30,027 nt of DNA, taken from positions 1 to 30,027 of the IMG/VR virus record IMGVR_UViG_3300028844_006010; one strand, given 5' to 3'. The stretch is from a virus. This document shows, piece after piece, positions 1,683 through 18,941 of the stretch (position 1 is its first letter; the number at the start of each line of letters is the position of its first letter). Made by a program: the position numbers and the translations under genes. Below the pieces are notes generated by a model. That model worked only from the letters and a program-made list of their open reading frames with translations, ran no database searches and was not told the DNA's origin.

Positions 1683-1889
1683 ATGGCGAAAGATCACACA
1701 ATACGGAACTACATAGGCGAGATCGCTGAATCCGTCAATCCCCGGCAAGATGCTGGGCCGTGGATGCACTTAAAAGATGCATCACGATCAGTGCTCAAGA
1801 GAGCCATTTTGCGGGGGTATTGCCACGGCGCTTTAAGCTTTGAGCAGACGCAAAGCCTCATTGATAAACTTGATTTGAATGAGGCTTGA
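1683..1889 (+). CDS. Small unknown protein before the replication initiator
   Basis: A 68-aa soluble protein beginning MAKDHTIRNYIGEIAES. AGGGA at 1672-1676 gives a good ribosome-binding site 6 nt before the start. The second half (SVLKRAILRGYCHGALSFEQTQSLIDKLDL) is predicted helical and could bind DNA or protein, but I recognise no family. The gene follows a 111-nt intergenic stretch holding a hairpin and ends 1 nt before the replication initiator start, so it is the first gene of the replication operon and probably works with it or sets its translation. Confidence 0.6.
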   Translation: MAKDHTIRNYIGEIAESVNPRQDAGPWMHLKDASRSVLKRAILRGYCHGALSFEQTQSLIDKLDLNEA

Positions 1890-1890
1890 G

Positions 1891-2882
1891 ATGATCGATC
1901 AAGAAACAAAATCTGCCGTGGATATTGCTGCCGACCGCTCCATCAAAGCCGGGCGCCTTTTGCTGGTTGAAAGGGCGCTCGCCAATGCCGTTTATGACGA
2001 TCGCCTTGATAGGGCAGATCTCCGCATTCTCGCGTGCATTTGCATGCTCATGCGAGATGACCACAAGGCGTTGTTTTCACGCGCCGCAATTGTCATGTAT
2101 TTGGGCTTGGCGCCCAAGACGGTTTCCAACCGACTCAGCAGATTGCGAGTGCTTGGCTACATCGTTTGCGAACCGATACCCGGCACGCAAAAACAGATCT
2201 TAGCTTTCGGCGATTCGGCTGTCCGATTGGGTGAAATCGAGGCCGCGATAACGGCCCACATCAGCAAAATTAGAGGCAATAACGTTCCTCCTATACAGGG
2301 AAGTCAGGACAATAATGTTCCCCCTATACAGGGAACTGGACAGGAAAACGTTCCCTCTATACGGGGAACAAACGTTCCCCCCATACAGGGAACTTCCCCG
2401 CCGGAAGGGAACATTAATCAAGAACGTTCCCCCCATACAGGGAAGTTCCCTGCGGAGGGGGAACAAACGTTCCCTCTATACGGGGAAGATCAAAAAAACG
2501 CACATATAGACTCTAAGACTCTAGATAAGAAGAAAGAGTCTAAGAAAGATTCTAGTCGCGCGCGCGGAACTCGACTTGAAGACGGCTGGAAGTTGCCGAA
2601 GTCGTGGGGTGAGTGGGCGTTAAACAATTTCCACGTCACGGCCGAAGAAGTTCGAAACGCTGCAGCGTCGTTTCGCGATCACTGCACTCGCAGTCTGGCG
2701 CGAAGGCGAAGAAGGTCGACTGGCATGCCACGTGGCGCAATTGGTGCCGAAATTCCATTCAGGGCTGGAAACGGCGGGCCAACGCCGAGTCGGATGCTGT
2801 TGACGCTTCACTTCTCGAAAAACAGAAAGATCCACGCAACGAAGACGGCTTGGTCGGTACGATGTGGGATCACGACGACTGA
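1891..2882 (+). CDS. Replication initiator (lambda O-like), reading frame broken near 2685
   Basis: The N-terminal part (about residues 40-95) is a winged helix-turn-helix: DRADLRILACICMLM, FSRAAIVMYLGLAPKTVSNRLSRLRVLGYI. The middle (about 132-200) repeats NVPPIQGT-type units because eight 20-bp iterons are translated there. The start at 1891 has GAGG at 1881-1884. The unshifted frame runs on to 3012, but its end is Arg-rich and shadow-like. The -1 frame encodes GAKAKKVDWHATWRNWCRN, typical of the C-terminus of such phage initiators, and stops at 2882 in a TGATG overlap with the next gene. A base is therefore probably missing near 2683-2692, or a frameshift occurs. By analogy with lambda O the protein would bind the iterons and load the helicase. 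The role is well supported; activity as sequenced is doubtful. Confidence 0.75.
2284..2488 (+). repeat. Eight-copy 20-bp iteron array (probable phage origin)
   Basis: Eight 20-bp units follow the pattern GTTCCC-YCYATACR-GGGAA(C/G), each with inverted GTTCCC/GGGAAC ends. They begin at 2284, 2317, 2350, 2374, 2393, 2426, 2445 and 2469. The copies at 2393 and 2445 keep the ends but differ in the centre and each shares one base with the preceding unit. Start-to-start spacings are 33, 33, 24, 19, 33, 19 and 24 nt, so the six good copies remain in one reading frame. The position in the middle of the initiator gene copies the plan of lambda ori inside gene O. Binding by the encoded winged-helix protein is inferred. 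Confidence 0.85.
2489..2560 (+). other. AT-rich, GANTC-clustered segment beside the iterons (candidate unwinding element)
   Basis: Directly after the last iteron comes a purine- and AT-rich tract with four GANTC sites in 44 bp: GACTC at 2509-2513 and 2517-2521, GAGTC at 2536-2540 and GATTC at 2548-2552. An inverted pair TAGACTCT/AGAGTCTA spans the middle. Iterons followed by an AT-rich tract is the order seen in lambda ori. GANTC is the CcrM target in alphaproteobacteria, so methylation could influence initiation. The unwinding role and the methylation link are inferences. Confidence 0.6.
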
Positions 2883-3478
2883 TGAGAAACCACAACGAAT
2901 TACTGGCCGAGAACAAGATCGTTCTGCAGGGCCAATGGAAGTTCGGAGGCGCACCGAATTATACGATCTGCCCGGAGTGTTCACCGCATCGCAAGCGGCA
3001 CAATCAGCGTAAACCGTGCTTAGGCGTAAAGCTCGATGAGTTGGGCATAAAATGGGCTTGTCACCACTGCGGCTGGTATGGTCATGCGTTTCTGAAATCG
3101 GGGAAAGAATATGCAGAATCAAACGGTTGGAATAACCGAACACCACGCCGAGTGGCTAGAGAACAGGGGGATCGACGTCGAGCTGGCGGCGAAGCACGGC
3201 GTGACGTCGAAACGAAACGGAATAGCGATTCCGTACCTGCACAACGGACAGAAAACTCACGACAAAGTCTTGCTGGCTCCACGCAAAGACCAGAAAGCGT
3301 ATTGCGAGCCGACAGGCGTGGATCAGTCGAACGTATGGAACATCGACAGCCTACAGGGGGAAGTCGATCCGAGGGCAGTGCTATACGTGACGGAAGGGGA
3401 GCTCGACGCACTCAGCGTTCTACAGGCGGGCGAGAGCTACGTGGTGAGCATGCCGTCAGGGGCCGCCAATACGATTGA
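2882..3478 (+). CDS. Primase zinc-finger domain, start of a frame-broken primase-helicase
   Basis: The first about 75 residues form a T7 gp4-type zinc-binding primase domain: C30xxC33 (TICPEC) and C60xxC63 (WACHHC), followed by GWYGHAF. Beyond codon 75 (about 3105) the frame turns into an Arg-rich shadow of the TOPRIM gene, so only 2882 to about 3110 is likely meaningful. Dropping one base from the GGGG or AAA run at 3100-3106 joins it smoothly to the TOPRIM frame at 3111, giving the usual zinc-finger/TOPRIM/helicase order. The start overlaps the stop of the initiator as TGATG. Alternatively the zinc finger is a separate small protein whose stop has been lost. Confidence 0.65.
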   Translation: MRNHNELLAENKIVLQGQWKFGGAPNYTICPECSPHRKRHNQRKPCLGVKLDELGIKWACHHCGWYGHAFLKSGKEYAESNGWNNRTPRRVAREQGDRRRAGGEARRDVETKRNSDSVPAQRTENSRQSLAGSTQRPESVLRADRRGSVERMEHRQPTGGSRSEGSAIRDGRGARRTQRSTGGRELRGEHAVRGRQYD

Positions 3479-4097
3479 GGGGTGCTTGTCGAAAGTTCGT
3501 CGCGTTTTCTGCGATGAGATCGAAGGTAAGTTCCATCTGCGCAAACGTTTCACGAAGTTCAAGCGCTTCTGCCTTTTGACCGATCGAGACGCGGATGGCG
3601 AAACGCTCCGCAAGGCACTCATCGAAGTTCTCGGCGAGAATTACTGCTTAGGTACGTTTTATCCAGATGGCTGCAAAGACGCCAACGATATCCTCAACCA
3701 TTATGGTGTTGAGGTTTTGTCGGGATTACTCGGCCAGGCCGCACCAATTGGGGAAGCTTGCATCATACCGTTTTCGCTTGCCCTCAAGATGCCAAGTCCG
3801 AAGCAGCTCAACCTCGGAATGCCCATACTTGACGGGCGGGGAATGCGATTTTCTGAGCCGTTTTTTGTGACCATTGGAGGTCCGGCCAACTCAGGAAAGT
3901 CAACGATTGCACAATGCATGCTGCTCAACTTATTGGCCAGCAACAGGCATCTGAAGGCATCGATTTTCCATGGTGAAGATAAACCCCAACACCGGGGACC
4001 CGCTTGTCCAAGAGCAGAGAAACGCTTGGATGGACGATGTTTTGAGCTTCATGAAGCCATACGGAGACCAGCTTCCGGAATTCGAGTGGCTGCTTGA
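3111..4097 (+). CDS. TOPRIM primase with helicase Walker A, frame-broken at the 3' end
   Basis: Makes RNA primers and forms the front of a ring helicase at the phage fork. TOPRIM motifs are all present: LYVTEGELDAL (acidic motif, about residue 91-101), LLTDRDADGE (DxD motif) and PDGCKDANDIL. A linker leads to the RecA-type Walker A, IGGPANSGKSTIAQ. After GEDKP (near 3985) the frame becomes a shadow to 4097, while the +1 frame continues the helicase. An extra C in CCCC (3984-3987) would explain the break. The ATG at 3111 has GGGGA upstream and could be a true internal start, as with the short form of T7 gp4, or simply the second piece of a broken gene. Confidence 0.75.
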   Translation: MQNQTVGITEHHAEWLENRGIDVELAAKHGVTSKRNGIAIPYLHNGQKTHDKVLLAPRKDQKAYCEPTGVDQSNVWNIDSLQGEVDPRAVLYVTEGELDALSVLQAGESYVVSMPSGAANTIEGCLSKVRRVFCDEIEGKFHLRKRFTKFKRFCLLTDRDADGETLRKALIEVLGENYCLGTFYPDGCKDANDILNHYGVEVLSGLLGQAAPIGEACIIPFSLALKMPSPKQLNLGMPILDGRGMRFSEPFFVTIGGPANSGKSTIAQCMLLNLLASNRHLKASIFHGEDKPQHRGPACPRAEKRLDGRCFELHEAIRRPASGIRVAA

Positions 4098-4530
4098 AAC
4101 GATCGAAGTTCACGCGCTCAACTTTGGTCGCCGCGTATTTATGATCGACCCATGGAATGAAATCATTCACCGCCGGGACATGCGAGGAAACCTTACGGAT
4201 CATATTGCGGAATGCATCGTTCGATTGAAGCGTCTGAGCGATCAGCTGGGCTTGATCATGATCGTCGTGCACCACATCAAAAAACCGTTCAACGCTAAAG
4301 ATCCGCCAACCATGTACGATCTCGCGGACTCTGCGCATTGGGCCAACAAATCCGATCAAGTTGTCATCGCTTGGCGACCACCAAGCATCAAATCGAAAAC
4401 TCTGTTCGAGCTAGCGAAGTCAAAAGATTTCGAACTGTTCGGATCTCCGTTCCGGTCATGGGTCAATCTCGACACCAAAAAGTTTGAACTGTACGAGGTC
4501 GACGCGCCGGAAGGTTACGAGAATATTTGA
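3970..4530 (+). CDS. RecA/DnaB-type helicase C-terminal part of the primase-helicase
   Basis: This 186-aa frame completes the helicase. It shows Walker B (RRVFMIDPWNEI, about residue 54-65), a sensor segment IVVHHIKKP, and LADSAHWANKSDQVVIAWR, the pattern of Twinkle/T7 gp4-like phage helicases. It has no Walker A of its own and no convincing ribosome-binding site before 3970, so it is the continuation of the gene at 3111 shifted by one base near 3984-3997. The stretch between the two halves is short, so a small deletion may accompany the frame break. If the break is real the helicase is inactive; if it is a sequence error the complete gene is 2882-4530. Confidence 0.75.
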   Translation: MVKINPNTGDPLVQEQRNAWMDDVLSFMKPYGDQLPEFEWLLETIEVHALNFGRRVFMIDPWNEIIHRRDMRGNLTDHIAECIVRLKRLSDQLGLIMIVVHHIKKPFNAKDPPTMYDLADSAHWANKSDQVVIAWRPPSIKSKTLFELAKSKDFELFGSPFRSWVNLDTKKFELYEVDAPEGYENI

Positions 4531-17227: not shown

Positions 17228-17428
17228 CTAGATGGCGGGCTCCAACTCGCCGCCGTCCTCCAAAACCGGAATGAATATAGGGACAGTGTATCGCTTCACA
17301 CGAACCAATCTGCCATCACCTTCCCATTCCAAAGCGTCAAGAGCTTCGTCTTTAGTTTTTCCAGTCGCGTAGTCGCCGTTTTCGTCCCAAGCAACATAAA
17401 TCTCGACGGATTTTTCCTCTGGCTGCAT
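17228..17428 (-). CDS. Lone minus-strand gene, moron-like
   Basis: A 66-aa protein on the opposite strand to everything else. The start at 17428 is chosen because GAAGG lies 8 nt upstream on that strand, and the protein from there looks real: SVEIYVAWDENGDYATGKTKDEALDALEWEG, then RLVRVKRYTVPIFIP. I recall similar small proteins in alphaproteobacterial prophages, without a known function; the first part also resembles the strand-turn-helix start of HicB-like proteins. The longer frame to 17536 is less likely. Being reversed inside the head operon suggests an independently expressed cargo gene, perhaps active in the prophage. Confidence 0.6.
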   Translation of the reverse strand: MQPEEKSVEIYVAWDENGDYATGKTKDEALDALEWEGDGRLVRVKRYTVPIFIPVLEDGGELEPAI

Positions 17429-17474
17429 CGAAACACCTTCGTTGTTTTCGCTACGATTGGAGATCATAAGTAGC

Positions 17475-18941
17475 ATGGATGAGAAGACCATAAAAGCAAC
17501 CAAAGCAGCGCAAGATGCGGCTTTGCGCGAGCTCAAGGCGATGAGCCGATCTCAGTTAAAAGCGTTACAGAGTAAAATAGGTGTTTCGCCAGACGGCCGC
17601 GCCGGCGCGGGTACAGCAGCACGTTTAGTGACATTCAGAGCAGAGCAGGCAGAAAAGAAAAGAGACGACGCAGATATCGCGCAAGCGCAAGCGAAAAAAA
17701 AACAAGCCCTAGCTGATGCGCAAGCGGCTAAAGCCAAGGCGGAAGCAGCGCGAGCGCAGGCAGAAGCCCAGCGAATAATAGCCAAGGCAGCAGCAGACAA
17801 AGCCAAGGCGGAAGCGGAATCGAAAGCCTTAGCATTCAAACGCGAGCAGGAGCGGGCAGCACGCAAATCGACTGAGGCTACTGTTGGCGGAGTCGCAGCG
17901 ATCACAGCCGCGACAGCTGGTGTCACGATTGGCAAGAAGGTGATCGCCAAAACGCTCGACCAGCGTTTCGCTACGTCTGTCGATAATAACCGGGCTCAAG
18001 TTGCGGCTCTAGCGAAGGAAGCTAGATCCGCAATAAAGTCTTATGCGCGCAACGGATCTAACAAGCCAGTAATTGCTGCGAGAATGTTGGAAATGGGCCG
18101 CGCTCAGAAATCTATGCTTCCAGCGGCTAGATCACCTCTGGGAATAGGCATAGCAGCAGCGGCCGGCGGGCTCGGTGCTTTCTCTCTATATCGTGGGTCG
18201 CAGGAAAGTGAATTTGTCTCGAAGATGGCCTTCAACGCCATGGCGGGATTAGAACTGGGTGTAGCTGTGGGAACTGTCGGACAACAGCTAGCCAATCGAG
18301 CTAACCCTACTACGGTTGTGCCCGCCAAGGACATCGCAGACATCAAAGCGGCGGAACGCATAGGCAAAGAGCGACCACACACGAAATCACGAAACAATAT
18401 TTCAAAGGTTGCTGGTCGTGCCTCAACGCTCGGCAGGGCCGCACCATATCTTGGCCCGGCTATTGGTCTTGGTGTTGCTGGTCTTGCACTCACGCAAGGG
18501 TCAACCCCTACGCAAGCTGCAAAATTAGGGGCTGACGTAGCATCGGCGGGCTCAATTTCAGAATATCAAGCGTTTCGCGCTCGCGGTAATAACATGGCTA
18601 TTTCCGGCGCTATGGCAGCTTTGAACTTCGCTACCTTCGGACTGTTCAGCCAAGCGCGCGCAGATAACGTCGACCGATCCGCAATCAGATCCAGAGGTCA
18701 AAGATTAGCCCAGCAACGATCGCGCATGGCTGCCCTTAAATCTCAAGCGCTGGCAGAAGCCCGCAAGCGCGGGAAGCTGACGTCAGGTGATTTCAGCCGA
18801 AGCATTCAACGATCTGCTCAAGAGATGCAAAAAAACACTGGATTTGTAGCGGCTCATAACAAGCGCGTCGGCAACAAGACGATACGAATTGAACGTCGTC
18901 GCAAGACCGCTGCAGAGATGCGACGAGGGCGTAATCTATGA
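17475..18941 (+). CDS. Candidate ejection protein: peptidoglycan-binding-like motif, coiled coil, hydrophobic segments
   Basis: A 488-aa protein. Residues 28-54 (LKALQSKIGVSPDGRAGAGT...) match the LQ..LGV.PDG..G..T core of the PG_binding_1 fold. An Ala-rich coiled coil follows (about 55-130). Then come several Gly/Ala hydrophobic segments: near 134-152 (ATVGGVAAITAATAGVTIG), SPLGIGIAAAAGGLGAFSLY, APYLGPAIGLGVAGLAL and ISGAMAALNFATFGLF, before a very basic C-terminus. Wall-binding motif, rod and membrane-active helices next to the connector genes suit a pilot protein that leaves the head with the DNA. The start is ATG 17475, with GGAG about 12 nt upstream. The motifs are visible; the role is inferred. 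Confidence 0.6.
   Translation: MDEKTIKATKAAQDAALRELKAMSRSQLKALQSKIGVSPDGRAGAGTAARLVTFRAEQAEKKRDDADIAQAQAKKKQALADAQAAKAKAEAARAQAEAQRIIAKAAADKAKAEAESKALAFKREQERAARKSTEATVGGVAAITAATAGVTIGKKVIAKTLDQRFATSVDNNRAQVAALAKEARSAIKSYARNGSNKPVIAARMLEMGRAQKSMLPAARSPLGIGIAAAAGGLGAFSLYRGSQESEFVSKMAFNAMAGLELGVAVGTVGQQLANRANPTTVVPAKDIADIKAAERIGKERPHTKSRNNISKVAGRASTLGRAAPYLGPAIGLGVAGLALTQGSTPTQAAKLGADVASAGSISEYQAFRARGNNMAISGAMAALNFATFGLFSQARADNVDRSAIRSRGQRLAQQRSRMAALKSQALAEARKRGKLTSGDFSRSIQRSAQEMQKNTGFVAAHNKRVGNKTIRIERRRKTAAEMRRGRNL

Follow-up and report, generated by a model that had tools for sequence, protein, structure and literature searches.

The stretch of DNA analysed here (the window) is a linear virus record of 30,027 bp. 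A phage-borne GcrA-type cell-cycle regulator is encoded at 689–1201 (PF07750, 3.6e-27), which suggests an alphaproteobacterial host. The closest relative of the terminase, found in a prophage region of an alphaproteobacterial genome (L187), was 55% identical, but its replication module was unrelated, which is a sign of module exchange. The initiator gene of the window lies on the plus strand. Its open reading frame (ORF) is listed as 1879–3012, the start being probably the ATG at 1891, and the part from 1891 to 2690 encodes an N-terminal winged-helix domain and a linker (phrog_11896, primosomal protein, 1.3e-5; winged helix-turn-helix model). Near 2680–2690 the conserved C-terminus departs from the frame of this ORF; the frame break in the record may be due to misassembly or to decay of the gene. 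Because of it, the C-terminal replication domain (RGTRLEDGWKLPKSWGEW...DWHATWRNWCR; 2557–2882, plus strand) was read in two frames.

A Toprim/DnaB-like primase-helicase is encoded downstream on the same strand (3111–4530) by ORFs 3111–4097 and 3970–4530 (phrog_239, 1.1e-27 and 1.7e-15; Toprim_2, 8.3e-7) and is a candidate partner of the initiator. A second frame break, caused by assembly error or decay, was observed within this conserved gene at 3970–4097. The small Zn-ribbon-like ORF at 2882–3110 contains CPEC...CHHCG motifs resembling a primase zinc-binding domain; its ATG start codon overlaps the stop codon of the initiator, its frame differs from that of the following Toprim ORF, and its PHROG match is only weak. 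The GC skew showed no switch across the window, which says little, since the window is a fragment with co-oriented genes. Among the co-oriented structural genes, a 102-aa ORF (17228–17536) lies on the opposite (minus) strand.

The N-terminus of the initiator is predicted to form a winged helix. In the AlphaFold model, which is based on a thin alignment, the winged helix-turn-helix region comprises residues 42–93 (2011–2169, plus strand), with a pLDDT of 78 overall and 84–94 per block within this region. The Pfam matches of the N-terminus to HTH_24 and HTH_Crp_2 were weak, none reaching any Pfam cut-off, and the hhalign match to initiators of the HTH_36 type was likewise weak (43 columns, E 1.3e-4, probability 54%). 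These initiators match PF13730 (HTH_36) clearly, whereas the window initiator did not match it. PF04492 (Phage_rep_O) was likewise not matched up to E 0.1 with the whole initiator or up to E 1 with its N-terminus, unlike in lambda O, which served as a control and matched at 5.7e-36. Judged by these profiles, the window initiator falls outside the lambda O family; an hhalign comparison of the HTH_36 profile with lambda O also found nothing. Foldseek placed the model among helix-turn-helix proteins of phages, a putative replication protein O being ranked 37th, and the PDB fold search returned only generic winged-helix regulators, the best being of the MarR type and none below E 0.001.

The C-terminal domain was assigned by phrog_11896, phrog_3992, phrog_1408 and the A1 family, and the C-terminal part matched PHROGs annotated as "primosomal" or "replication initiation" at E 1e-5 to 5e-4. 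The presence of the A1 domain in the window was supported by tblastn (Massilia, 4e-4; Ideonella, 1e-3) and by genome matches at 9.7e-5 and 9.9e-5. This domain is also part of annotated initiators from Pseudomonas phage F10, Burkholderia phage Bcep176, and Mycobacterium phage Shipwreck. With the winged-helix model and this replication-type domain, the proposal of an earlier sequence-only reading that the array is held by a winged-helix initiator gene stands as a prediction. When the complete initiator was used as a query against phages, plasmids, viral contigs, and GTDB contigs, there were either no matches or C-terminal relatives only, and a close relative was found in none of these sets.

The central part of the initiator gene harbours eight sites of 20 bp, all on the plus strand and pointing the same way, that match GTTCCC-n8-GGGAAC with 0–2 mismatches. 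Iterons 1 to 4 are in frame 0 of the gene (GTTCCTCCTATACAGGGAAG, 2284–2303; GTTCCCCCTATACAGGGAAC, 2317–2336; GTTCCCTCTATACGGGGAAC, 2350–2369; GTTCCCCCCATACAGGGAAC, 2374–2393). Iterons 5 (CTTCCCCGCCGGAAGGGAAC, 2393–2412, centre degenerate) and 6 (GTTCCCCCCATACAGGGAAG, 2426–2445) are in frame +1, and iterons 7 (GTTCCCTGCGGAGGGGGAAC, 2445–2464, centre degenerate) and 8 (GTTCCCTCTATACGGGGAAG, 2469–2488) are in frame +2. The start-to-start distances are 33, 33, 24, 19, 33, 19, and 24 bp. As the sequence-only reading had noticed, neighbouring sites share one base in the pairs 2374/2393 (base 2393) and 2426/2445 (base 2445). Its count of eight palindromic-ended sites was also confirmed: no further site with up to two mismatches was found in the 30,027 bp, the chance expectation was 0.85 ± 0.93, and eight sites were reached in none of 100 shuffles. 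For the fuller motif GTTCCCYCTATACRGGGAAC, the number expected by chance was 0.00.

The distribution of the sites over the reading frames (0,0,0,0,1,1,2,2) allows a DNA element to be distinguished from a protein repeat. The peptides encoded by the sites are NVPPIQG, SPPEGNI, RSPHTGK, KFPAEGE, and TFPLYGE; only four good copies encode N-V-P-P/S-I-Q/R-G, whereas the good copies at 2426 and 2469 give RSPHTGK and TFPLYGE, respectively. Thus, the earlier statement that the spacings preserve the frame for six good copies was wrong, since only four of these are in frame 0. The accompanying claim that a DNA requirement had dictated the protein sequence holds insofar as the linker is shaped by the DNA, but three frames are used and there is no conserved NVPPIQG unit. 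The three exact units and one near unit in frame 0 could be taken to mean that NVPPIQG matters as a peptide and that the DNA similarity is secondary. This is hardly credible and is already contradicted by the frames, since four of the eight sites lie in the other two and encode unrelated peptides; frame mixing was also seen in relatives. The linker peptide appears free to vary. The occurrence of the sites in three frames, with the peptide changing while the DNA repeats, argues more strongly for a DNA-level element than does the evidence offered by the sequence-only reading itself, and such a mixed-frame criterion tells DNA-level iterons from protein repeats without experiment.

The conservation within the sites is uneven. 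Across sites, the arms had a mean pairwise identity of 91% and the centres one of 54%, and a YCYATACR centre is common to six of the eight, the centres of 2393 and 2445 being unrelated. Compared with the nearest full site, these two degenerate sites retain 11/12 and 12/12 arm bases but 3/8 centre bases. The contrast between arms and centres, together with the frame spread, is expected under a DNA-binding constraint but not for a protein repeat. A shift of 52 bp places the 2374/2393 pair on the 2426/2445 pair, which looks like a duplication within the array. The similarity between the sites may in part stem from recent duplication, but this leaves unexplained why only the arms were kept in the degenerate copies.

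REP/BIME repeats are dispersed GC-rich hairpins, often arranged in opposite-facing pairs. In contigs of bacteria and viruses, TTCCC-n8-GGGAA palindromes are common REP-like repeats, and such repeats dominated the results of our paired-palindrome scans. Together with the apparent duplication, this could indicate that the array is a mobile palindrome of the REP/BIME kind, or that it arose recently by neutral tandem duplication within the gene. We consider that very improbable. The sites are confined to one gene and one orientation, their YCYATACR centre contains AT, unlike the GC-rich REP centre, and the degenerate copies have lost the centre while keeping the arms; on these features, the array was rejected as a REP/BIME member. 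The instability of the adjacent DNA and the recurrence of such arrays in initiators, both described below, would also be left unexplained. The iteron itself, exact or with a relaxed centre, gave no matches or single unrelated matches in viral contigs, and none of 385 genomes from the class of Sphingobium contained a TATA-centred pair.

A scan of nearest-neighbour energies showed that the A-rich stretch 2494–2553 is the lowest-stability 60 bp in all 30 kb. It starts 6 bp past the last site and codes for a K/E/S-rich linker, and it represents a candidate DNA unwinding stretch. Two features of an intragenic iteron origin, the functional class exemplified by lambda ori, are therefore present at the locus, namely an initiator-sized repeat array (eight sites) within the initiator gene and easily melted AT-rich DNA adjoining the iterons (2494–2553). 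The unstable flank has no explanation if the palindromes act as RNA hairpins in the initiator mRNA, regulating translation or termination. Every palindrome is able to form a stem, and longer inverted-repeat arms are present. However, Rfam gave no family at the gathering score (matches were far below threshold), and stems would not require direct repeats that all point the same way and have conserved centres; a role as RNA hairpins is thus extremely unlikely.

The distribution of such arrays was explored in relatives sharing the C-terminal domain, namely the best 80 of 526 viral loci from a scan with this domain. The relatives were sorted by their N-terminus, and arrays were defined as 18-nt repeats with up to 4 mismatches, at least 3 copies, and mixed frames. 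Among these best 80 of 526, mixed-frame intragenic arrays were present in 11 of 12 loci with HTH_36-type N-termini vs. 2 of 68 others. After single-linkage collapse at 60% identity, the counts were 8/9 and 2/34 clusters (p = 2.7e-6; the comparison was post hoc, and the value is approximate owing to residual relatedness). Three copies were never obtained when the codons of the window gene, of lambda O, and of four relatives were shuffled. In 10 of the 13 array-bearing loci, the lowest-stability 60 bp of the gene starts no more than about 65 bp from the array end, the exceptions being L205, L248, and L253. The unstable 60 bp likewise starts near the array end in Bcep176 and a Massilia plasmid, and at distances of 2 bp in lambda O and 6 bp in the window.

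The HTH_36-type initiators (C-terminus RLPxDW...DWxATWRNW; Bcep176 gp11, Massilia plasmid WP_099883128, and viral loci including L194, L200, and L247) have in common with the window an N-terminal winged helix (predicted in the window), a related C-terminal domain, multi-frame intragenic iterons, and a low-stability stretch near the array end. They differ in the iterons themselves (e.g., AACAGTCCCAAAAACCGG; CCCCCGCAGAATCCGCA) and in their spacing of 17–25 bp. One HTH_36-type relative, L234, had no array. An intragenic array was also absent from the HTH_36-like protein of Caulobacter phage Sansa (L269:7856–8743), which has another C-terminus; thus, the array rule is not valid for all such initiators.

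The organization of the locus was compared with that of the lambda origin. The latter is located in the middle of gene O and contains 19-bp imperfect inverted-repeat iterons for a dimeric O protein, flanked by an AT-rich region, while the origins of Stx phages have six iterons, the two extra iterons corresponding to 13 more residues in O (PMC7466680). When lambda O (NC_001416) was measured in the same way as the window, its annotated iterons were in frames 0,2,2,1, and the least stable stretch began 2 bp past the array. Like the window, the lambda and Stx origins have imperfect inverted repeats of about 20 bp with TCCC/GGGA arms, placed in several frames in the central part of the initiator gene, and AT-rich DNA directly past the array. 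Their initiators, like that predicted for the window, have an N-terminal DNA-binding domain and a separate C-terminal domain. However, lambda has four sites with 20–24-bp spacing, whereas the window has eight with 19–33-bp spacing and abutting pairs. In addition, no lambda P-type helicase-loader gene is found next to the window initiator; the Zn-ribbon-like ORF and the Toprim primase/helicase (phrog_239) are located downstream instead.

The same layout in replication initiators and in lambda O, whose origin function is known, also bears on whether the sites are operators, bound by the initiator or another phage regulator that controls transcription through the gene with no role in an origin. 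Imperfect palindromes of 20 bp are typical of dimeric regulators, and MarR-type regulators were the best PDB fold neighbours. Nevertheless, the eight sites are deep within the coding sequence, a long way from the gene start; similar sites are absent elsewhere in the window, and the array adjoins its least stable DNA. We regard an operator function as improbable.

Taken together, the three-frame placement, the adjacent least stable stretch, the replication-type C-terminus, and the same layout in relatives and in lambda O support a lambda-type origin, and the sequence-only proposal that the plan is that of lambda ori in gene O with a different repeat is well supported. Thus, 2284–2553 is very probably a phage replication origin inside its own initiator gene, which, by its anatomy, would work like lambda ori. 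In such an origin, the initiator would bind the 20-bp imperfect palindromes of its own gene through its N-terminal winged helix, probably as one dimer per site. Several bound dimers, some of them on abutting sites, would form a nucleoprotein core able to open the adjoining A-rich stretch 2494–2553. The C-terminal domain would then recruit the replication machinery, most simply the neighbouring phage primase/helicase. Since the sites would work as DNA, they can occupy all three frames of the linker, whose peptide would matter little.

The intragenic-origin plan, including the writing of part of the linker protein by the DNA, is already established from lambda, and the general picture of how such origins work stays unchanged. 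Distinct from lambda are the site number, the iteron code, the abutting pairs, the initiator family, and the neighbouring replication genes. An origin and the likely recognition site of its initiator can be named in a phage known from its sequence alone. The mixed-frame criterion flagged 13 of the best 80 of 526 viral relatives and could predict origins widely.

A broader arrangement may be envisaged for initiators sharing the C-terminal domain, in which a DNA-binding domain, its cognate iterons, and a melting stretch form a contiguous cassette inside the gene. A winged helix of the HTH_36 kind would be accompanied by linker iterons in several or all frames, a DUF1376-like or other N-terminus nearly always by none, and the window would add another type of cassette, with a 20-bp code of its own. 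We give this generalization roughly even chances. If it is true, the origin and the initiator specificity of uncultured phages would be readable directly from sequence.

Two further loci are worth recording. In a relative with a DUF1376-like initiator, the linker contains a 12-bp in-frame tandem repeat, ACCCCCCTAGAT (L164:1420–1459). A 366-aa ORF with no Pfam match (L015:3266–4366) contains four TTCCC/GGGAA-type palindromes (3749–3882) followed by a K/E-rich stretch, and is possibly an independent intragenic origin.
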